Below, piece after piece: positions 7,782 to 63,264 of a stretch of DNA of 64,000 nucleotides. Source of the stretch: Rhododendron vialii (lineage: Eukaryota > Streptophyta > Magnoliopsida > Ericales > Ericaceae); contig NC_080557.1 in NCBI RefSeq assembly GCF_030253575.1, forward strand, positions 39,105,001 to 39,169,000, read 5' to 3'. Position numbers and translations under genes: made by a program. The number at the start of each line of letters is the position of its first letter. Position 1 is the stretch's first letter. The notes below the pieces were generated by a model. It was not told the origin of the DNA and ran no database searches. It saw nothing but the letters and a program-made list of their open reading frames with translations.

Positions 7782-9711
7782 CTAAGGTATTCCGATGATG
7801 GGCATAAACGGAACATAGAAGCTCGACGGGGCCAGGCCCCACTCCCGCGGCAGAGGCAGGTCGACGGTCTTGGACGAGCCGAGGTCCGCGTTGTGGGCCC
7901 CACACTTCGCGTCCTCCTTCTGACCTGACACGGGGCACGATGTGTAGAAACTCAGAGGAGCGGAGATGGTGTAGGAATCTGCAGAGTCGTGGGCTTTCGC
8001 AGTTTCGGAGACCATGTTTTTTCTTGAGGCGTAGAGCTGGGTTGGACCACCGAGGATTTTGGTTTGGCAATTGAGAGGAGGAGAAGTTGCTGTAGCAGTG
8101 TCCGAGGGAAGCTCGGTCTCGAAGGCTCCATCTTCTGTTGTGGTTGCCACAGCCAGCTTTTTCACTTGGCTGCACTTCACTAGAACCTTGATGTCTGAAG
8201 CCAAAATGTGATGAAGAAATTAGAAGGAATCGCGAGGTAGTTACCATGTACTTCCTAGTTATGCATCCAATAACCGTGAACTCTTTACGTCACCAAGAAA
8301 GTCGAAATTGGCTGACGTGACACGTGAGTCATACCCGGAATGATCTAGTCCATATATAGCTTCTTTAAAATGTTGAAATTGTTTTTGCCTGTTTAGTATT
8401 AATTGTTACACTATAGAGAGATCGAGGTATGCTACAATTGAATTTGGAATGACCGAGCTAGGCTTGTTTGCATTTATCCGTCAGAAAATATGAAGTCTTT
8501 GACAGTAGCCACTCTACATGATACATCAATCACTATTTATATATGTATGGGCAGATATGGTTACGTTCTTCCTCAAACATAAAGTACCCAGTACTTATCT
8601 CTATTTATAATAATATTGACTTCTTCTTCTCTTTTTTTTTTGCAATGCATGGTGTTCCGAGCCAACTTGCACAGACCTCAGACTAATTCCTACCACCCAT
8701 CCCACATCCGTTTCTCATGCTTACGCGTGGAGATGAGGTAAGTCTAAGAGTTACTGGCGGAAAGAATCGAACCTGGTCAGATCTCAAGAGGAAATAAACT
8801 CCTAAGTCTCAAGTCAAAACCACCCGACCACATCTTAGGAATTCTATTTGGAAATTGTACAGACAAAGTTTTAACCATAAGTACTTGGGAAAATAATTAC
8901 CAACAAAACTTGCATCCAGAAAAGTTTTACATCTAAAACAATTAATCGGTTGTACATTTTTAAACTTAATTAGCCAATAACAGGTGCTATGGTCAGAAAT
9001 GAGAGGACCTAAAAAAGCCATAGAATACTGTATGAAAATCATGTGCACTTCTGTTCACAAAACATTAGCCTATTCCCTTACCTAAAATGGTAAGATATGA
9101 AAGAAAAGCTGCTCTTTTTTTTTTCGATTTCTTATTTTTCTAAAAGAGAAAATAAACGAACAAAAAGACAAGAGGCAACCCTTGGAGCCACTCCACCCCA
9201 CGAATAAGCATGTGAAACGTCTATGGAGAGACTGTAGGGATTAGTTCGAGTGCGCGTAAGCTAGCCCAAAAAATCATATATTACCTAGAAAAAGGCAAAA
9301 GGGAAAGACGAACTAGGACTAAAGTACTGGTCCATGGATTCAGGGACTCTGTAGTGCAGGGGTGTAATCCACCATCTCAACCGTTTGAACGTAATTTCAA
9401 TGGTCCAGATAAAAAAAAATATTTTACATGTAACAAACTTTTTAAAATCTAAATCATTAATTACAGGGATGGACAGATGGGATGTTGCACTACATCTCTA
9501 GTGCACCCCGCATTACAGGATCCCCGTGTCCCTGGTCCAGACAAAAGAAAAGAAGAGTTAGGAAAAAACCAGAAAGATCGGAGAGGGAGTTGCAGTCAAG
9601 GCAGGTGACAGAGCCTTTCAAGACATGGCATGCCGAGAACTCAACCCTTGCAAAAACCAAAGCAAGCAGGAGAAGAGCTGTGACAACCTGATGGAGATGA
9701 TGAATCGCCAT
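7782..9711 (-). CDS. Pollen Ole e 1 allergen/extensin family secreted protein
   Basis: Two exons, 9711-9570 and 8194-7782, join in frame (GT-AG; 142+413 bases) to 184 residues. Residues 1-27 (MAIHHLHQVVTALLLLALVF...) form a clear signal peptide. Mature sequence starts near CHVLKGSVTCLDC, the 'G-x-V-x-C-x-x-C' start typical of the Ole e 1 domain. The domain continues with DIKVLVKCSQVKKLAVATTTEDGAF and ELPSD, and further cysteines lie at FYTSCP and AKCGAHN. Members are secreted, cysteine-paired beta-sandwich proteins of the cell wall; many have no defined function. The 1375-base intron contains a MITE close to the donor side and a probable SINE. A TATA-like AATATTTATATC (minus strand) lies at about 9786-9797. 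The family call is good; which paralogue it is remains open. Confidence 0.88.
8630..8836 (-). mobile_element. Probable tRNA-derived SINE, minus strand
   Basis: Read on the minus strand, from about 8836: a box A-like GTGGTCGGGTGGTTTTGACTTG, then a box B-like AGGTTCGATTC (forward GAATCGAACCT at about 8766-8776), then about 120 bases and an A-tail, seen as a T-run at 8630-8640. The spacing and order fit a plant SINE inserted in the intron of the Ole e 1-like gene. I could not find a convincing target duplication. Confidence 0.5.
9329..9538. mobile_element. MITE with long terminal inverted repeats
   Basis: Left end GGTCCATGGATTCAGGGAC...CTGTAGTGCAGGGGTG is mirrored by right end CACCCCGCATTACAGGATCCCCGTGTCCCTGGTCC. 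About 210 bases with an AT-rich centre and no coding capacity. It sits within the Ole e 1-like intron, ending about 32 bases from the splice donor at 9569. No clear target duplication, so the superfamily is undetermined. Confidence 0.7.
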
Positions 9712-39500: not shown

Positions 39501-39925
39501 AAGAGAGAGAAAGAGAGAGAGAGAAGATGCCCTAAATTTAACTACCCGGTGACAAAACCGCCTATAATTTTCCCAGGGGGCGCGGCCGCCCCTTGGTTCT
39601 TTCTTTATTCCGGCGACGATTTCAACCCATTTTAAATTAAATGCCCACACGTTTATTGTTTTTCCTTTTCTAGGTTTTTTTTTTTTTAATCCGTCCTTTT
39701 CTAGTGTTTATTCCCAGCCCTCAATTATTCCATTCATTCTCTGTCAATGAACAATTGTTTAGTACTCCCTCGGTCCCAATTTAAATATCTCTTACGCTTT
39801 TTGGTGCATTTTTAAATCTCAAAAATATATATTTCTACATATTATTTTTTTTAATTTTCTTCCACCAAATTAAAGTACTATTCCCTCCTTCCGTCCCTAA
39901 ATAAGTATCCAGTGCGCAAACCTAA

Positions 39926-40167
39926 TGCCTTGTTCGGATTTGTATTTGAAAAAAAAATTCAACTCAGAAAAAACTTATTATCTCTATTTTCAATCATTAC
40001 TCTCATTTTTTTCTCTCCTCTTTCATATCATTATTCTCATTTCTCATTTCTCATTTCTATCTCTCTCCCCTCATTATCTCTATCTTCAATTATTACCTTA
40101 ATTTCTCTTTCCACTCATTACCCAAAAACCAAATTCAAAATTTTTTAAAACACCATCTAAACAATGT
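39926..40167. mobile_element. MITE with GCCTTGTTCGGAT... ends inside inner Stowaway
   Basis: GCCTTGTTCGGATTTG on the left and CACCATCTAAACAATGT on the right are approximate inverted ends. The TC-rich interior of CAATCATTACTCTCATTT units matches the 24241-24451 element. Confidence 0.55.
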
Positions 40168-40171
40168 ATAA

Positions 40172-40475
40172 GAGCATCTCCAGTCTTGACCCATTTTAAG
40201 ACTCAAACTTAAAAATGGAGCAAAAATCACAAAAATCACTCTCCAATCTTTGACCCAAACCCTTCCCCATTTTGGGTTTTACCCATTTTTTTGCCCAAAT
40301 TTGAGACAACTTTTGCCTTGACCCATTTCTCCAACGGCTAGTTAGAGAGAGAGAGAAAGAGGGAGATGTGTAAAATTTGGGTCTAATGGTTGGAGATGTG
40401 TCTACCCAAAATGGATTTTTACCCAAAATTTGACTCAAATTTGAGGAAAAATATTGGTGAAGGATGGAGATGCTC
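40172..40475. mobile_element. Tourist-like (PIF/Harbinger) MITE, TAA target duplication
   Basis: Ends GAGCATCTCCAGTCTTGACCC and GGATGGAGATGCTC, with TAA at 40169-40171 and 40476-40478. Interior is made of inverted 'CTCAAATTT' and 'GACTCAAACTT' type motifs. A second copy lies at 57559-57849. About 304 bases. Confidence 0.85.
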
Positions 40476-41408
40476 TAAGCCTTTCAAAAGATGCATTTGT
40501 TTCATTAATTTTTTTCACAAATCAATAGATAACAATGAGTTTTATTAGATTATGGGAAAAACATAGATTTTTTAACGAAAAATATGCATCTTTTGTAAGG
40601 TCTAGATTTGCGCGCTGGACACTTATTTAGGGACGGATGGAGTATTAAAGTACTCAAGCCCTTTAATTTGGTGTAAGAAAATAAAAAATAATATGTAGAA
40701 GTATATTTTTTGGGTTTGAAAATTAACAAAAAAAAAACTATAGGGAACATTTAAATTGGGACAGAGGGAATATTAACAATTCTAAACAATTTATTTGGCT
40801 TTTGATTTTTAAAAAAAAAAAAAAAACGAGCTCTTGAAGAATTGGCCAAATCGCAAGATACATAACTCGAGAATTGGCCAAATCGCAAGATACATAACTC
40901 GGGAAGGAATTCAAACAATTTTTAAGTTGCATAGTTTTCTCCAATTTTTAAAAACAAGTTACATCGTTGGCGTATAACATGTATTTATAATCTGGAGTTT
41001 ACATCACCAATTATCTTAATACCGTTGTTTAGGTTACGAGAACCTGACCGGGCAAATCAAACCTCGAAATTCTAGAAAGCGGTAGTGGAGCTAAATCAGG
41101 CTTCACTAACTCAAAATTTTAGTTTCTTGTAGTTCCATTCCTTCACTACATAGTGAAAAATGCCAGAAAAATTTAACAAAAAGACTGAAAAGTTATGTCC
41201 ACTTGAGGAAAGTTGGCAATTTCTTGTCATTGTTAGCATTAATTGAACCAATGAAGTTGGTTTACTTGAGCAATGGAAGTTGGTTTTCGTTTTTGGATAG
41301 AACACATATTTAAATGCACACGCGAAGTGCCTGCACCACCAAAATACTGTACTAAAACTAAATTGAATAGTACTACAACATTTTTTTCTCACAAGACAAA
41401 GAAAGGAC

Positions 41409-50689: not shown

Positions 50690-53054
50690 TCATTCAACTG
50701 GCCTCTGTCCCAGAACTGGAATATCCTCGTACCGCTTCTGCATTATACAGTTTATAAAAATCAGTCAGAAATATAAGTAGACAACAAGTATGGACAGTTG
50801 AAACAGCAGCAAGCATGATAAAGAAGGGCAACAGATTCAACTATTGGCCGGAATAATTAAGGAGTAAGCATTCTGTATACATTGGCCCCACGTGCACAGT
50901 CACGCACAGCAATAAGATTAGAAACCAGTCCTATAGAATCCTGTATAGTGTGTATGAAAACCAATGAATAGATATACTGCTATCAGCTATGTAGTTTTGG
51001 GCATCATTTTCTCTCCCTGATCACTTCAATGTTCCAAGATCAAAGTGAACACAGACCCACTTGACCAAAGTGAGTTGTCATATCTGTCATGAATTTCGTT
51101 AGTTGTGTTGATTGTGGAGTTCTAAATCCTAATGTATCAAAGGAGCTAAATTTGCAAATAAATTCAAGTTTCTTTATTGATGATGTTCACAAATTATAAT
51201 TCTATTCGCATAGCAATGTTTACAATTTGGATGTCACATACACTTTGGCACTAACATGGAGACCTAAAATTATACAGGTCTTGGGTTTTAAGAAGTGAGA
51301 TGAAATTTGACATTGGATATGATAGGAAAGAGTCTGCGTCCATTACAATAAGGTAAAGAAAACAAGAATGTGAATCGCGCAGAGTCTTGTATGCTTTCTA
51401 GTAAATTAAGTTTAGGCTTTAGAGCGACATCAATAACAAGGTTCTTTCATACTATTTCTTTCGTCTGTAGGATATGGAGGGCAAGCTTGTCAATTCCAAA
51501 TATTCAGTTTGCAAAACTAACCAAAAGTTCATCAATCAAATGCGCACTACATACTGAGTTTGTATGCAGTCAATCAAAACCTTCTTGGCCGAGTAACACA
51601 AAAACACAACCAGCTAGTTACAGAAATTGATGCTTCAAAAACAAAATATGAAATATAAGAAAAGATTGTCCAATGATGAAGGGAACAAAGTTGTTGTGCA
51701 TCATGACAAACAAGCTAGATTTATTGACAACTATTTTACCTTAGATCCGTGGAGATTAAAAAAAAAAAAAGAAGTCATACAACAATGTTCCTTATCAAGG
51801 AAATTTTATTTTGTAGCCAAACGGCACTTACAAGGATCCCAACAAAATATAGCGGAAAAATAATCTTCGCCATGTAATACACAAAATCACAACCAGCTAG
51901 TTGATAGAAATCGATTCTTAGGACACACTAGGCTATAAGACAAGATTTGTGTTCCAAAATCAATTCTTACAACCTAGACACAAGCTTCATGCTCTCTTAA
52001 CACATACTTCATCAAAAACCAATGCTTCAAAACAAACGGAAAAATGGTTTAAGCCTTGTGTCAGTCAAGAGAAGAAGGAAAAATTAGTTAGGCTCTAACC
52101 AAAGAAAAAGAACCTGTACGGTGGTTGAAATTCATCACCTACTAGCTTCCAAGTTACCAACGAACTACATAGCATGAATATGCATGGCAGGGGAGACAGA
52201 CATGGATACTGGACACCACAATTATAAAAAAATGGAGACACGAACACAGTAATTTTACACCACTTAAAAGTCATACCACGACAAAGATACAAATCAAATC
52301 TTCATCTAAAGTTTGTATTAATACACATCAGAGATTCAAACAGGGGCTGAATAGCTGGCCAGTTTCCCATCCAAGAAAATTAGTTGTAACAAATCATGCA
52401 CGTCTGGTCTTTAGCATATGACAGTAGTACCACAACAGAACGGTGATTATATCATAGAACTATTTCAGTTAAAAGAAATGAAATCAATATGCACCAGAAC
52501 AAATACAAACTAAATCGTGGTATGATTATAATGGAAATACCCCAACGTTGTTGTACTCCCAGAGCTTGTGAACTCCATAATCCACTGCCTGCATAAACAC
52601 ATAAATTGAACACTTCATCGGAAACGATTCGAATAAGTCAAACTCCGACCAATCTAGTCATCAAAGCACAACTTCTCATTTTTTTTTGGTAAAGAAGATC
52701 ATCAAAAACACAACTTATTAACCCTACATGAGCAAATCCAATCAAATTTCCCAATGTCTGTCACGCTTGGTGATGTAAATCCTAGGTTATAATACTTGCT
52801 TCACGTAAAAGTCTATGTGTCTAGCGTTCTTGTTTTCCGTTCTTGATAATTCTTTGCGCGTTGGTTTGGCCGAATTCTCAACAATGTCTACTGGTACGAT
52901 ATAACCCTACACGTCTATCTGAGGCTCAATTATACATCTCAACAACCAAAATGTTAGGATGATGTCGAAATTCAGATCCAAATAAAATTCAGCAAAACCG
53001 ATCTCAGAACCAACTTCGTGAGTATTACTCATCTCTAGATATGTGTAAGTAAAC

Positions 53055-53097
<43 letters not shown>

Positions 53098-53258
53098 CAA
53101 ATTAAAAAGGAGTGAACGAGAGATGAGATTTGAAAGCTAACCCGTTCTCCGGCGAAAGCGCCAGCGATGACGAATGTGGCGTAGACGGAGGTACGGCGCA
53201 TAAGGACCTTGTATAGACCTTCGAATAGTCCTCCGCTTCGTATCGCTGTCAAATTCAT
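50690..53258 (-). CDS. QCR9: Cytochrome b-c1 complex subunit 9 (QCR9, complex III)
   Basis: Three exons, 53258-53142, 52588-52541 and 50737-50690 (117+48+48 bases), join in frame with GT-AG introns to 70 residues, the usual 70-72. Exon 1 encodes MNLTAIRSGGLFEGLYKVLM and RRTSVYATFVIAGAFAGER, which includes the single membrane helix. Exon 2 gives AVDYGVHKLWEYNNVG and exon 3 KRYEDIPVLGQRPVE. QCR9 is a small inner-membrane subunit of mitochondrial ubiquinol:cytochrome c reductase that stabilises the Rieske protein and cytochrome c1. Intron 1 has an (AT)n microsatellite near the donor. A MULE inserted at 53309, about 50 bases upstream of the ATG, separates the gene from its original promoter. Confidence 0.93.
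53058..53095. repeat. (AT)n microsatellite
   Basis: About 18 AT units in QCR9 intron 1, 47 bases from the exon 1 donor. Confidence 0.9.
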
Positions 53259-53308
53259 CGTCTCTCTCTCTCTCTCTCTCCTGTGTTGAGGTTTGTCGAA
53301 TGCGCGAT

Positions 53309-54749
53309 GGAGATTACTAATCGCCCCCCTCCGTGTCAGGCCCCCCTCCTGACACGGCTCCCCTTTTCCCCTTTTACCCCTACCCCTCTCTCTCTCTCTC
53401 TCACTGCACGCCCTTTCTCTCTTTCTCTCTTTTTTTGTAAAATTTTAAATACTAATAATTTTTTTCAAGTATTTTTTTAATAAATTATATATTTTTAAAA
53501 TCTACTCAACGAAATCTATCAAACGAGCCTAATATTGATAGTGTAATAATGTAAAACGAAAAAATTATATTTTTGTGGTAGTTTAATATTAAGGGGACGT
53601 TCGGCTAAATAAGCCACTTGGCTTATTTTTTTGTATTTATTCAAATTTTTTTTGCATTTGTTAGTTTTTAGTCAATTTTTTAAGAATTATTGCTTCGTCA
53701 TGATGAGAGGAATCTAAAACAAAAAATTTGCTTCCAACCATCGGCACCAGAGGATCATTGGATGGATTTTATAACGTTGGGACTTGTCCGCATCAAGGTA
53801 CAACATTGTACTACATACATTCAATATGATTGGCTTCGAGTTGTCTCACTCACTTGCCGTTGAGCTCCCATCCAGTTCCATTCGCAGCGCGCAAACATAT
53901 AGCTATTGGCCATGTTAATGGAAATCACTTCGTGCAAGTTTTCCTATACCATCATTATCCTCCTGTACCACCCATTTTCATATGGTGGAGGCGAAATGCA
54001 TCAAATGAAGCACACAGATGGACTCATCCTTATGAAGCACGCCTCCAATTGTGGTATGAAGTAATGGGGATAGAACCGCCGGGACGAAAAAAAAAAAAAC
54101 AAAGGACAAAAAATAAAAATAAAGAGATATTATACTGGGCCCAAAAAAATCATTTAATTTAAACACGTTATTTCATATTCAATATTTGACTTGTTTGATA
54201 GGTTTCGTTGAGTAGATTTCAAAAATATAAAATTTATTTTAAAAAAATATGTGATTTCAACATCTTTAGACAATTTATATATTAAAAAATATAGTTAAAA
54301 AATTAAGTATTTCAAATTTCAATCCTTTTGAACCGGTGGAAAGATGTTAATTTTCTGATCATTTTATCCTAAATGGTCATAATTAAATTTTGACTCTACG
54401 ATCTCGTTGATTAACCCTAAGAGATATTTGATTCAAACGGATTGAAATTTAGGACACTCAATTTTTCAACCTCTTTAGACAGTCTAAACTACCAAAAAAT
54501 ATAATTTTCCCGTTTTACATTATTTCACCATCAATATTAGGCTCGTTTGATAGATTTCGTTGAGTAAATTTTAAAAATATAAAATTTATTTTAAAAAAAT
54601 ACGTGAAAAAAAAGTTATTAACATTTAAAATTTTATAATAAAAAATAAAATAAAAGAGAGAGAGCTTGGAGGACCAGGGGTAAAATGGAAAATTAAAGGG
54701 GACCGTGTCAGGGGGGGCCTGACACGGGGGGGTGCGATTAACACATCTC
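53309..54749. mobile_element. MULE-like transposon with 9 bp target duplication, upstream of QCR9
   Basis: ATGCGCGAT flanks the element exactly (53300-53308 and 54750-54758). Ends GGAGATTACTAATCGC and GCGATTAACACATCTC are inverted copies. The subterminal region holds its own palindrome, CCGTGTCAGG-CCCCCC-CCTGACACGG, then long AT-rich inverted arms (about 250 bases; both contain the CGTTTGATAGATTTCGTTGAGTA motif, inverted on the left). A further direct copy of part of the right arm lies at about 54165-54262. The 1.44 kb element has no MURA transposase frame, but encloses a protease-like relic at about 53700-54050. Long inverted arms plus a 9 bp duplication are typical of Mutator-like elements. 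Confidence 0.85.
53700..54070 (+). pseudogene. Relic of an OTU/cysteine-protease-like domain carried inside the MULE
   Basis: One frame at 53830-54060 reads LTHLPLSSHPVPFAARKHI-AIGHVNGNHFVQVFL, then PPIFIWWRRNASNEAHRW. The 'IGxVNxNHFVQVF' block with its histidine resembles the C-terminal catalytic part of plant transposon-associated cysteine-protease domains (OTU- or Ulp1-like). Just upstream, EDHWMDFITLGLV and SRYNIVLHTFNM appear in two other frames and fit the same domain, so at least two frameshifts are present. No catalytic cysteine region is seen. It is either a decayed element gene or a captured host fragment. The family label is from memory of similar sequences. Confidence 0.5.
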
Positions 54750-54973
54750 ATGCGCGATCGCAGATCAGTTCAGGTCCCCAGGAGAGGAAAGCGAACCGGT
54801 TTAAACCGGGTTTTTCCGGTTCAGTGAGGTACTGTATATAAATTAAAAAATGATACACACACAACCGTTGTGTTGATTGTGAACCTAATTCTGGCCTTCC
54901 AGATGTGTTTGAATGGTCTAGATTTAAAAAAAAAACTCTTTTGGGAAAAGTTTAACTTTTGATATAAATTATT

Positions 54974-55186
54974 CTCTCCGTCACATAATGTTTATCCGGT
55001 CTGCAAAACAAGAATGTAAAAATAGTACAATTTTTTAAAGAAAAATTTAAATTTTTTTCAACAATTCACTAGATATCGATGAATTTTTTTAATTTATAAA
55101 AAAAGATTGAATTTTTTCTCGAAAGAAGTGCATTATTTTTTAGCCTTCGTTTTACGGACTATACAAACATTTTGAGACCAAAGTAG
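54974..55186. mobile_element. Stowaway-like MITE
   Basis: CTCCGTCACATAATGTTTATCCGGTCTGCAAAAC on the left is inverse to GTTTTACGGACTATACAAACATTTTGAGACCAAAGTAG on the right, about 213 bases, AT-rich centre. Ends are diverged. Confidence 0.65.
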
Positions 55187-55866: not shown

Positions 55867-56105
55867 GTTAGAAGAACTATCAAGCTAGCAAGAATTTACT
55901 CAAATTACAAATGATGCTACTTTTGCACGTATTTACATCTCTCGTCGTTGAGAATTACTGTAATTAATAAAATGACAGTTAATAAGTGTGCTATTTAAGT
56001 TGTTATTGTCTAACAATCGTCTCTTTTCTTTTACAAAAAATTCAAAAATAATAGGTAGTATTAAGACAACACGATGGTTTCAGCCGTGTCAGGCCTAGAT
56101 TATTC

Positions 56106-56690
<585 letters not shown>

Positions 56691-62869: not shown

Positions 62870-62879
62870 TAGTGAGATA

Positions 62880-63254
62880 AAAAATGCTACTGGTACAGCA
62901 GCTGCATACAGATCCCCTTTGCGCTCGCCTCGGGTCCCACAAAGATGATCGGAGCCGCTCATTTTGTTCAAAATACGTCGTTTAAGGTCCCAAAAAAAAA
63001 TTACCTCAATCCGATATCGGGAAGGGTGTTTACGAATCATCCAACTTTGCTTCAAAATCCGATCATCTGGCTAAATTTTGAAGCAAAGTTGGATGATTCG
63101 TAAACACCCTTCCCGATATCGGATTGAGGTGATTTTTTTTAGGGACCTTAAACGACGTATTTTGAACAAAATGAGCGGCTCCGATCATCTTTGAGGGACC
63201 CGAGGCGGGCGTAAAGGGGATCTGTACGCAGCTGCTGTACCAGTAGCACTACTC
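62880..63254. mobile_element. Near-perfect palindromic MULE-like foldback element with 9-10 bp target duplication
   Basis: TAGTGAGATA flanks it (62870-62879 and 63255-63264). Arms run 62885 to about 63058 and 63075 to 63248: TGCTACTGGTACAGCAGCTGC at the left end and its inverse at the right. The inner 110 bases (GATCGGAGCCGCTCATTTTG ... GCTTCAAAAT) differ by about two bases between arms; the outer 60 bases differ slightly more. Loop of about 17 bases. No coding capacity. The duplication length fits Mutator-like elements. Confidence 0.9.
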
Positions 63255-63264
63255 TAGTGAGATA

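Follow-up and report, generated by a model that had tools for sequence, protein, structure and literature searches.

A MULE-type element directly upstream of an intact QCR9 gene in Rhododendron vialii

In maize, Barkan and Martienssen reportedly described in 1991 a Mu1 insertion at hcf106, in which an outward-reading promoter is located near the Mu end. Further observations on plant MULEs concern their promoters and their preferred positions: transposase promoters are contained in MULE terminal inverted repeats (TIRs; PMC6446971), the occupancy of Pack-MULEs in maize and rice peaks just upstream of start sites (PMC7337890), and 62 of 75 Mu insertions in glossy8 have been located in the 5' UTR (PMC545602). 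A natural MULE insertion in a promoter region is OsMULE-JSS1, which lies 0.4 kb upstream of rice PsbS1 and is flanked by a 9-bp target-site duplication (TSD), and the promoter type bearing it has shown higher reporter activity (PMC4178011). MULEs near start sites as well as Mu ends acting as promoters are known already. The QCR9 gene described here is found in a 64-kb window of Rhododendron vialii DNA (the whole stretch that was analyzed).

As in the reported hcf106 insertion, a Mutator-type element lies near the gene start, in a position that would allow its end to act as promoter; there, however, the promoter is said to have been shown by experiment, whereas at QCR9 we infer it. With OsMULE-JSS1 the element shares the 9-bp TSD, the natural origin and the location in a promoter region, but the rice element is about 2.7 kb long, has 80-bp TIRs, lies farther from its gene and contains FAR1 and MULE domains, and cultivars lacking it are known (PMC4178011). 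The position just upstream of the gene and the diverged TIRs are likewise seen for Pack-MULEs and other non-autonomous MULEs near plant starts (PMC7337890). Pack-MULEs carry a captured host gene fragment between their TIRs; in the element at QCR9, none has been identified in two frames compared with Pfam and one with PDB. A literature search, with most subscription journals outside its reach, has returned no description of the locus.

The gene itself is an intact nuclear QCR9, encoding subunit 9 of complex III. It is complete on the minus strand, with its start codon at 53258-53256 and 70 amino acids encoded in three exons, and its GT-AG introns are both in phase 0 with all four splice sites intact (Table 1). 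The product of exons 1 and 2 matches PF05365 (UCR_UQCRX_QCR9) with E = 1.4e-16 and 60.6 bits at a cut-off of 27, and the protein aligns with three solved QCR9 chains at E-values from 1.4e-32 (7jrg_J) to 1.1e-31, two of these chains presumably being those of mung bean and Arabidopsis. Five residues (L11, T23, A27, A36 and Y51) differ from all three aligned chains, which among these five positions are mutually identical at T23 and A27, and given these differences the constraint on QCR9 may be relaxed. Apart from the three exons, all matches within the 64-kb window have E-values of at least 2.8, and no second QCR9 copy is found there. Intron 1 contains a (TA)n run of ~38 bp at 53057-53095, ~50 bp past exon 1.

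Upstream of this gene, the sequence-only reading had placed a MULE of 1.44 kb with an exact duplication, about 50 bp before the start codon, and size, duplication and distance are all borne out: the element measures 1,441 bp, is flanked by two exact copies of the 9-bp ATGCGCGAT, and is separated from the start codon by 50 nt (Table 1). Searched on both strands, ATGCGCGAT has two occurrences in the 64-kb window, compared with a mean of 0.14 in shuffled sequences, of which 1 in 100 contained at least two. The TIR arms, each about 270 bp in length, pair between 53318-53585 and 54740-54485 with 81.2% identity over 276 columns (BLAST, E = 1.9e-66), and the matching core ends at most 10 bp from the TSD copies on both sides; when the terminal 292 and 280 bp are aligned globally, 238 columns are identical, 29 mismatched and 38 gapped, and the outermost bases of the element are GGAGAT and GAGAT. 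A scan for exact 9-bp direct repeats spaced by 150-6000 bp and flanking inverted ends, from which low-complexity words had been dropped, has given five rows for the window, corresponding to four distinct elements with the QCR9-upstream one among them, and zero structures in all eight second-order Markov controls. That the flanking repeats match by chance and no insertion took place, for which one may point to the shortness of the TSD and to the one shuffle in 100 with two or more copies, can practically be dismissed in view of the TIR pairing immediately inside both TSD copies and the empty controls.

MULEs are characterized by a TSD of 8-11 bp and long TIRs (PMC6446971). Both features are present here, in the form of the exact 9-bp TSD and the TIRs of about 270 bp, arms of hundreds of bp being common in MULEs, and the segment 53309..54749 is almost certainly a MULE. 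As no transposase has been recognized in the two longest internal frames of the plus strand, it is taken as a non-autonomous or decayed member. A MULE moves by a transposase with a DDE/MULE domain, either its own or that of a related element. The divergence of the TIRs gives no date for the insertion, because the arms need not have been identical when the element inserted. A second full copy of the element is absent from the rest of the 64-kb window, and a pattern derived from the TIRs gave 0 matches to viral contigs, as expected for plant-like DNA.

Table 1. Positions of the features discussed, in coordinates of the window; negative positions are counted from the QCR9 ATG.
Feature	Position	Strand	Remarks
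QCR9 exon 1, coding, 39 codons	53142..53258	-	exon 1+2 product matches Pfam PF05365
QCR9 exon 2, 16 codons	52541..52588	-	
QCR9 exon 3, 15 codons + stop	50690..50737	-	
Leader between element and ATG, 50 nt, one TSD copy included	53259..53308	-	(GA)10 at -22 to -3, mRNA sense
TSD, QCR9-proximal copy, ATGCGCGAT	53300..53308	.	exact repeat; -42 to -50
MULE-type element, 1,441 bp	53309..54749	.	9-bp TSD and long TIRs
QCR9-proximal TIR	53309..53589	.	inner edge approximate; BLAST core 53318-53585
Subterminal perfect 10-bp hairpin CCGTGTCAGG/CCTGACACGG, proximal arm	53331..53357	.	7-base loop
G-quadruplex motif, four G4 runs	53360..53386	- (QCR9 sense)	-102 to -128; loops 2, 5, 4
Two overlapping open frames	53690..54162	+	possibly remnant of a protein carried by a MULE
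TGGGCCCA, palindromic site II-type motif in element	54136..54143	.	-885
Internal third copy of TIR segment	54165..54254	.	88% to 54517-54606
Distal TIR	54481..54749	.	inner edge approximate; BLAST and global alignment
Subterminal perfect 10-bp hairpin CCGTGTCAGG/CCTGACACGG, distal arm	54703..54727	.	5-base loop
TSD, distal copy, ATGCGCGAT	54750..54758	.	exact repeat
Pyrimidine patch CTTTCCTCTCCT	54780..54791	-	-83 to -72 in rejoined empty site; from -1533 now
TATA-like box, TATATAC	54834..54840	-	-132 in rejoined empty site, -1582 now

Rejoining the flanks in silico, with a single TSD copy retained, restores an empty site in which a TATA-like box and a pyrimidine patch precede the leader (Table 1). 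A TATA[AT]A match between -165 and -95, an interval chosen after the box had been seen, occurs in 42 of 2000 shuffles. Relative to the start, the TATA box is positioned at -50 to -20 and the Y patch at -100 to -1 (PMC1832190). Based on these ranges, the TATA-like box implies an old start between -112 and -82, so that the insertion would have occurred inside the old leader. For the pyrimidine patch the start comes out at -71 or later, and the insertion would then coincide with it or lie close by on either side; the two motifs disagree on one start site. Judging from both, the element sits at most about 70 bp away from where transcription used to begin, a location inside the leader being the likelier one. 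The old upstream motifs are intact and, although shifted by 1,450 bp, might still be effective through the intervening element. Regarding the proposal that the insertion had separated the gene from its ancestral promoter, the probable old core promoter has indeed been moved by 1,450 bp, but the TATA-like box puts the insertion downstream of the old start, and promoter capture would be one of several outcomes.

The earlier statement that neither TGGGCC nor a telo-box is found in the first 100 bases beyond the element can be extended to the 692 bp before the ATG of the rejoined empty site, from which TGGGCY (either strand) and AAACCCTA/TAGGGTTT are absent; missing site II motifs are weak evidence in either direction. 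A site II-type motif is absent beyond the element yet present within it, as TGGGCCCA (Table 1), at a distance from the QCR9 ATG that is too great for it to carry weight. As a transferred regulatory motif TGGGCCCA has been set aside, TGGGCC occurring 7 times and GGCCCA 9 times in the window.

The leader had been described as TC-rich, which applies to the plus strand only, and in mRNA sense the tract reads (GA)10. GA elements can act as core element in place of a TATA box (PMC3782648), and the tract could serve as such a GA-type core element. An old start within the GA-rich leader, downstream of the insertion, might on this basis have stayed in use with only the upstream control region changed, and the start at -71 or later that follows from the pyrimidine patch and the positions in PMC1832190 would agree with it. 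Had the old start been fixed downstream of the insertion by the GA tract or the patch, no shift of the start would be required. We give this course of events little credence, as the TATA-like box implies an earlier start and a distance of <50 nt from the ATG would make for a very short leader.

The distribution of ATGs bears on where transcription of the occupied allele may begin. An unspliced transcript from the old upstream motifs would contain 28 upstream ATGs between -1493 and -399, one of which straddles the junction of TSD and element, and the rejoined leader has no ATG from -277 to the QCR9 start codon. In the occupied allele, the 397 nt before the QCR9 ATG are free of ATG, compared with a mean of 3.07 in shuffles and zero in 23 of 1000. 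The near arm alone lacks ATGs as well, which happens in 59 of 1000 shuffles; taken in the outward direction, the distal arm contains a single one at a shuffle mean of 2.82, which is not unusual (at most one in 153 of 1000). The ATG-free stretch is only nominally unusual and is one among several features inspected. The near arm also has a TATA[AT]A match at -233, and in sense orientation it contains no pyrimidine run of at least 9 nt. As an unspliced read-through would contain 28 upstream ATGs and a start within the last 398 bp none, a shift of initiation to the near arm or the GA leader is the likeliest outcome.

The reading that we tentatively favor begins with a non-autonomous or decayed MULE, which inserted at positions -42 to -50 relative to the ATG of the intact nuclear QCR9 gene, presumably either directly at the old transcription start or a short way downstream, the motifs not agreeing fully on this start. 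The old promoter motifs now lie ~1.5 kb from the ATG; unspliced transcripts beginning there would carry the upstream ATGs of the element, so present starts would most likely be located in its near arm or in the GA-rich leader. Such a new start may be caused by outward promoter activity of the TIR, or by the GA tract already being a core element. The element landed at a usual MULE site, and in this course of events the gene tolerates the insertion. To the reading as a whole, relocated start included, we assign a probability of roughly 45%, and not a higher one because the TATA-like box and the pyrimidine patch imply different starts.

Removal of the element from the transcript would provide another way of dealing with its ATGs: the old promoter beyond 54758, with its motifs intact, could still drive QCR9 if most or all of the element were spliced out as a 5' UTR intron. 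Potential splice sites (247 donors and 215 acceptors) have been ranked with a frequency matrix that serves for ranking only, with donors listed for 53136-53143, 52540-52556 and 54700-54840. Beyond the element, donors are present at 54806 (rank 48 of 247) and 54796 (rank 66 of 247), and the leader offers an acceptor at 53281 (rank 52 of 215), ahead of which the sequence is not U-rich. For excising precisely the element from the leader, the available sites rank below those of QCR9 itself: in the same scan, the acceptors of the gene occupy ranks 1 and 10 of 215 and its donors ranks 11 and 27 of 247. The near-arm acceptors 53502 and 53529 rank well (14 and 15 of 215), therefore a partial removal of the element by splicing is possible, and from 53501 or 53528 down to the QCR9 ATG no ATG is encountered. 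Taken together, continued use of the old promoter with such an intron is unlikely, if by no means negligible.

Within the near arm, in which the favored reading places possible starts, two structured motifs lie close to the leader. Each arm carries a subterminal perfect hairpin (Table 1), with predicted folding energies of -22.6 kcal/mol for a 57-nt stretch around the proximal and -20.1 kcal/mol for a 60-nt stretch around the distal one. Shuffling generates a motif with four G4 runs, like the adjacent G-quadruplex motif, 8 times in 2000 for the 112-bp end and 0 times in 1000 for the element. A less strict version built from G3 runs arises in 502 of 2000 and 9 of 1000, respectively, and therefore the G-rich end alone often yields the weaker kind of quadruplex. 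In the window, the search for the G4 motif has given two further matches, both of them long poly-G runs. The G4 motif, the TATA box and the ATG-free stretch had been spotted by inspection first, and their shuffle counts are uncorrected for the number of features viewed. At the DNA level, the G4 motif might promote an open chromatin state of the promoter; as part of a leader it might obstruct scanning, and together with the hairpin it could impede translation of a longer leader.

In a further explanation, the insertion weakens or silences this QCR9 copy and the protein is supplied by another copy or by an element-free allele. A Mu1-derived element in the 5' UTR blocked expression from a maize construct (PMC545602), and siRNAs have been linked to long MULE TIRs (PMC6446971). 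The five residues unlike all three aligned chains would fit as well, and the search, which covers the 64-kb window, has found just this copy. On the other side, neither the reading frame nor any of the four splice sites is damaged, as would also be expected if the insertion were recent, and we regard a weakened copy as possible but rather improbable. In the opposite direction, the near arm, with its G4 motif, GA tracts, TATA-like match at -233 and freedom from ATGs, might constitute the core promoter and leader of the only QCR9 gene of the genome, which would have left the site II-type co-regulation with its partners; this far-reaching version of the relocation we consider unlikely. Should starts be located inside the element, the locus would represent a clean natural replacement of the promoter of a housekeeping respiratory gene by a transposon end; from the sequence by itself, it is one more MULE at the 5' end of a gene, where such elements are expected.

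The interior of the element contains a third copy of a TIR segment as well as two overlapping open frames, which may resemble the OTU-like proteins associated with MULEs. These two, the longest plus-strand frames wholly within the element, have no Pfam match up to E = 10, and the frame 53830-54162 has no match in PDB.

Further repeats surround the locus. Another MULE-like element, a miniature one measuring 232 bp and bearing the 9-bp duplication AGATTATTC, is located at 56097-56346, ~1.3 kb past the first, its inverted ends sharing 69 identities in 96 columns, and a near-palindromic MITE-like stretch, which resembles Stowaway, extends over 54980-55178 with 65 identities in 90 columns between its arms; together they make the upstream region of QCR9 crowded by repeats. 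Two more elements with inverted ends are found at 39870-40654 and 62870-63263, flanked by direct repeats of 10 bp and 9 bp, respectively. The TIR motif CCGTGTCAGGCC has four matches in the window, two of them within the QCR9-upstream element, against 0.07 expected; the other two, at 56084-56095 and 7922-7933, are one exact and one with a single mismatch, and may be TIR fragments. At 56303-56599, an isolated frame encodes part of the ATPase domain of an ABC transporter (PF00005, E = 2.8e-07, best stretch at profile positions 102-137 of 137), which is probably a piece of a pseudogene.
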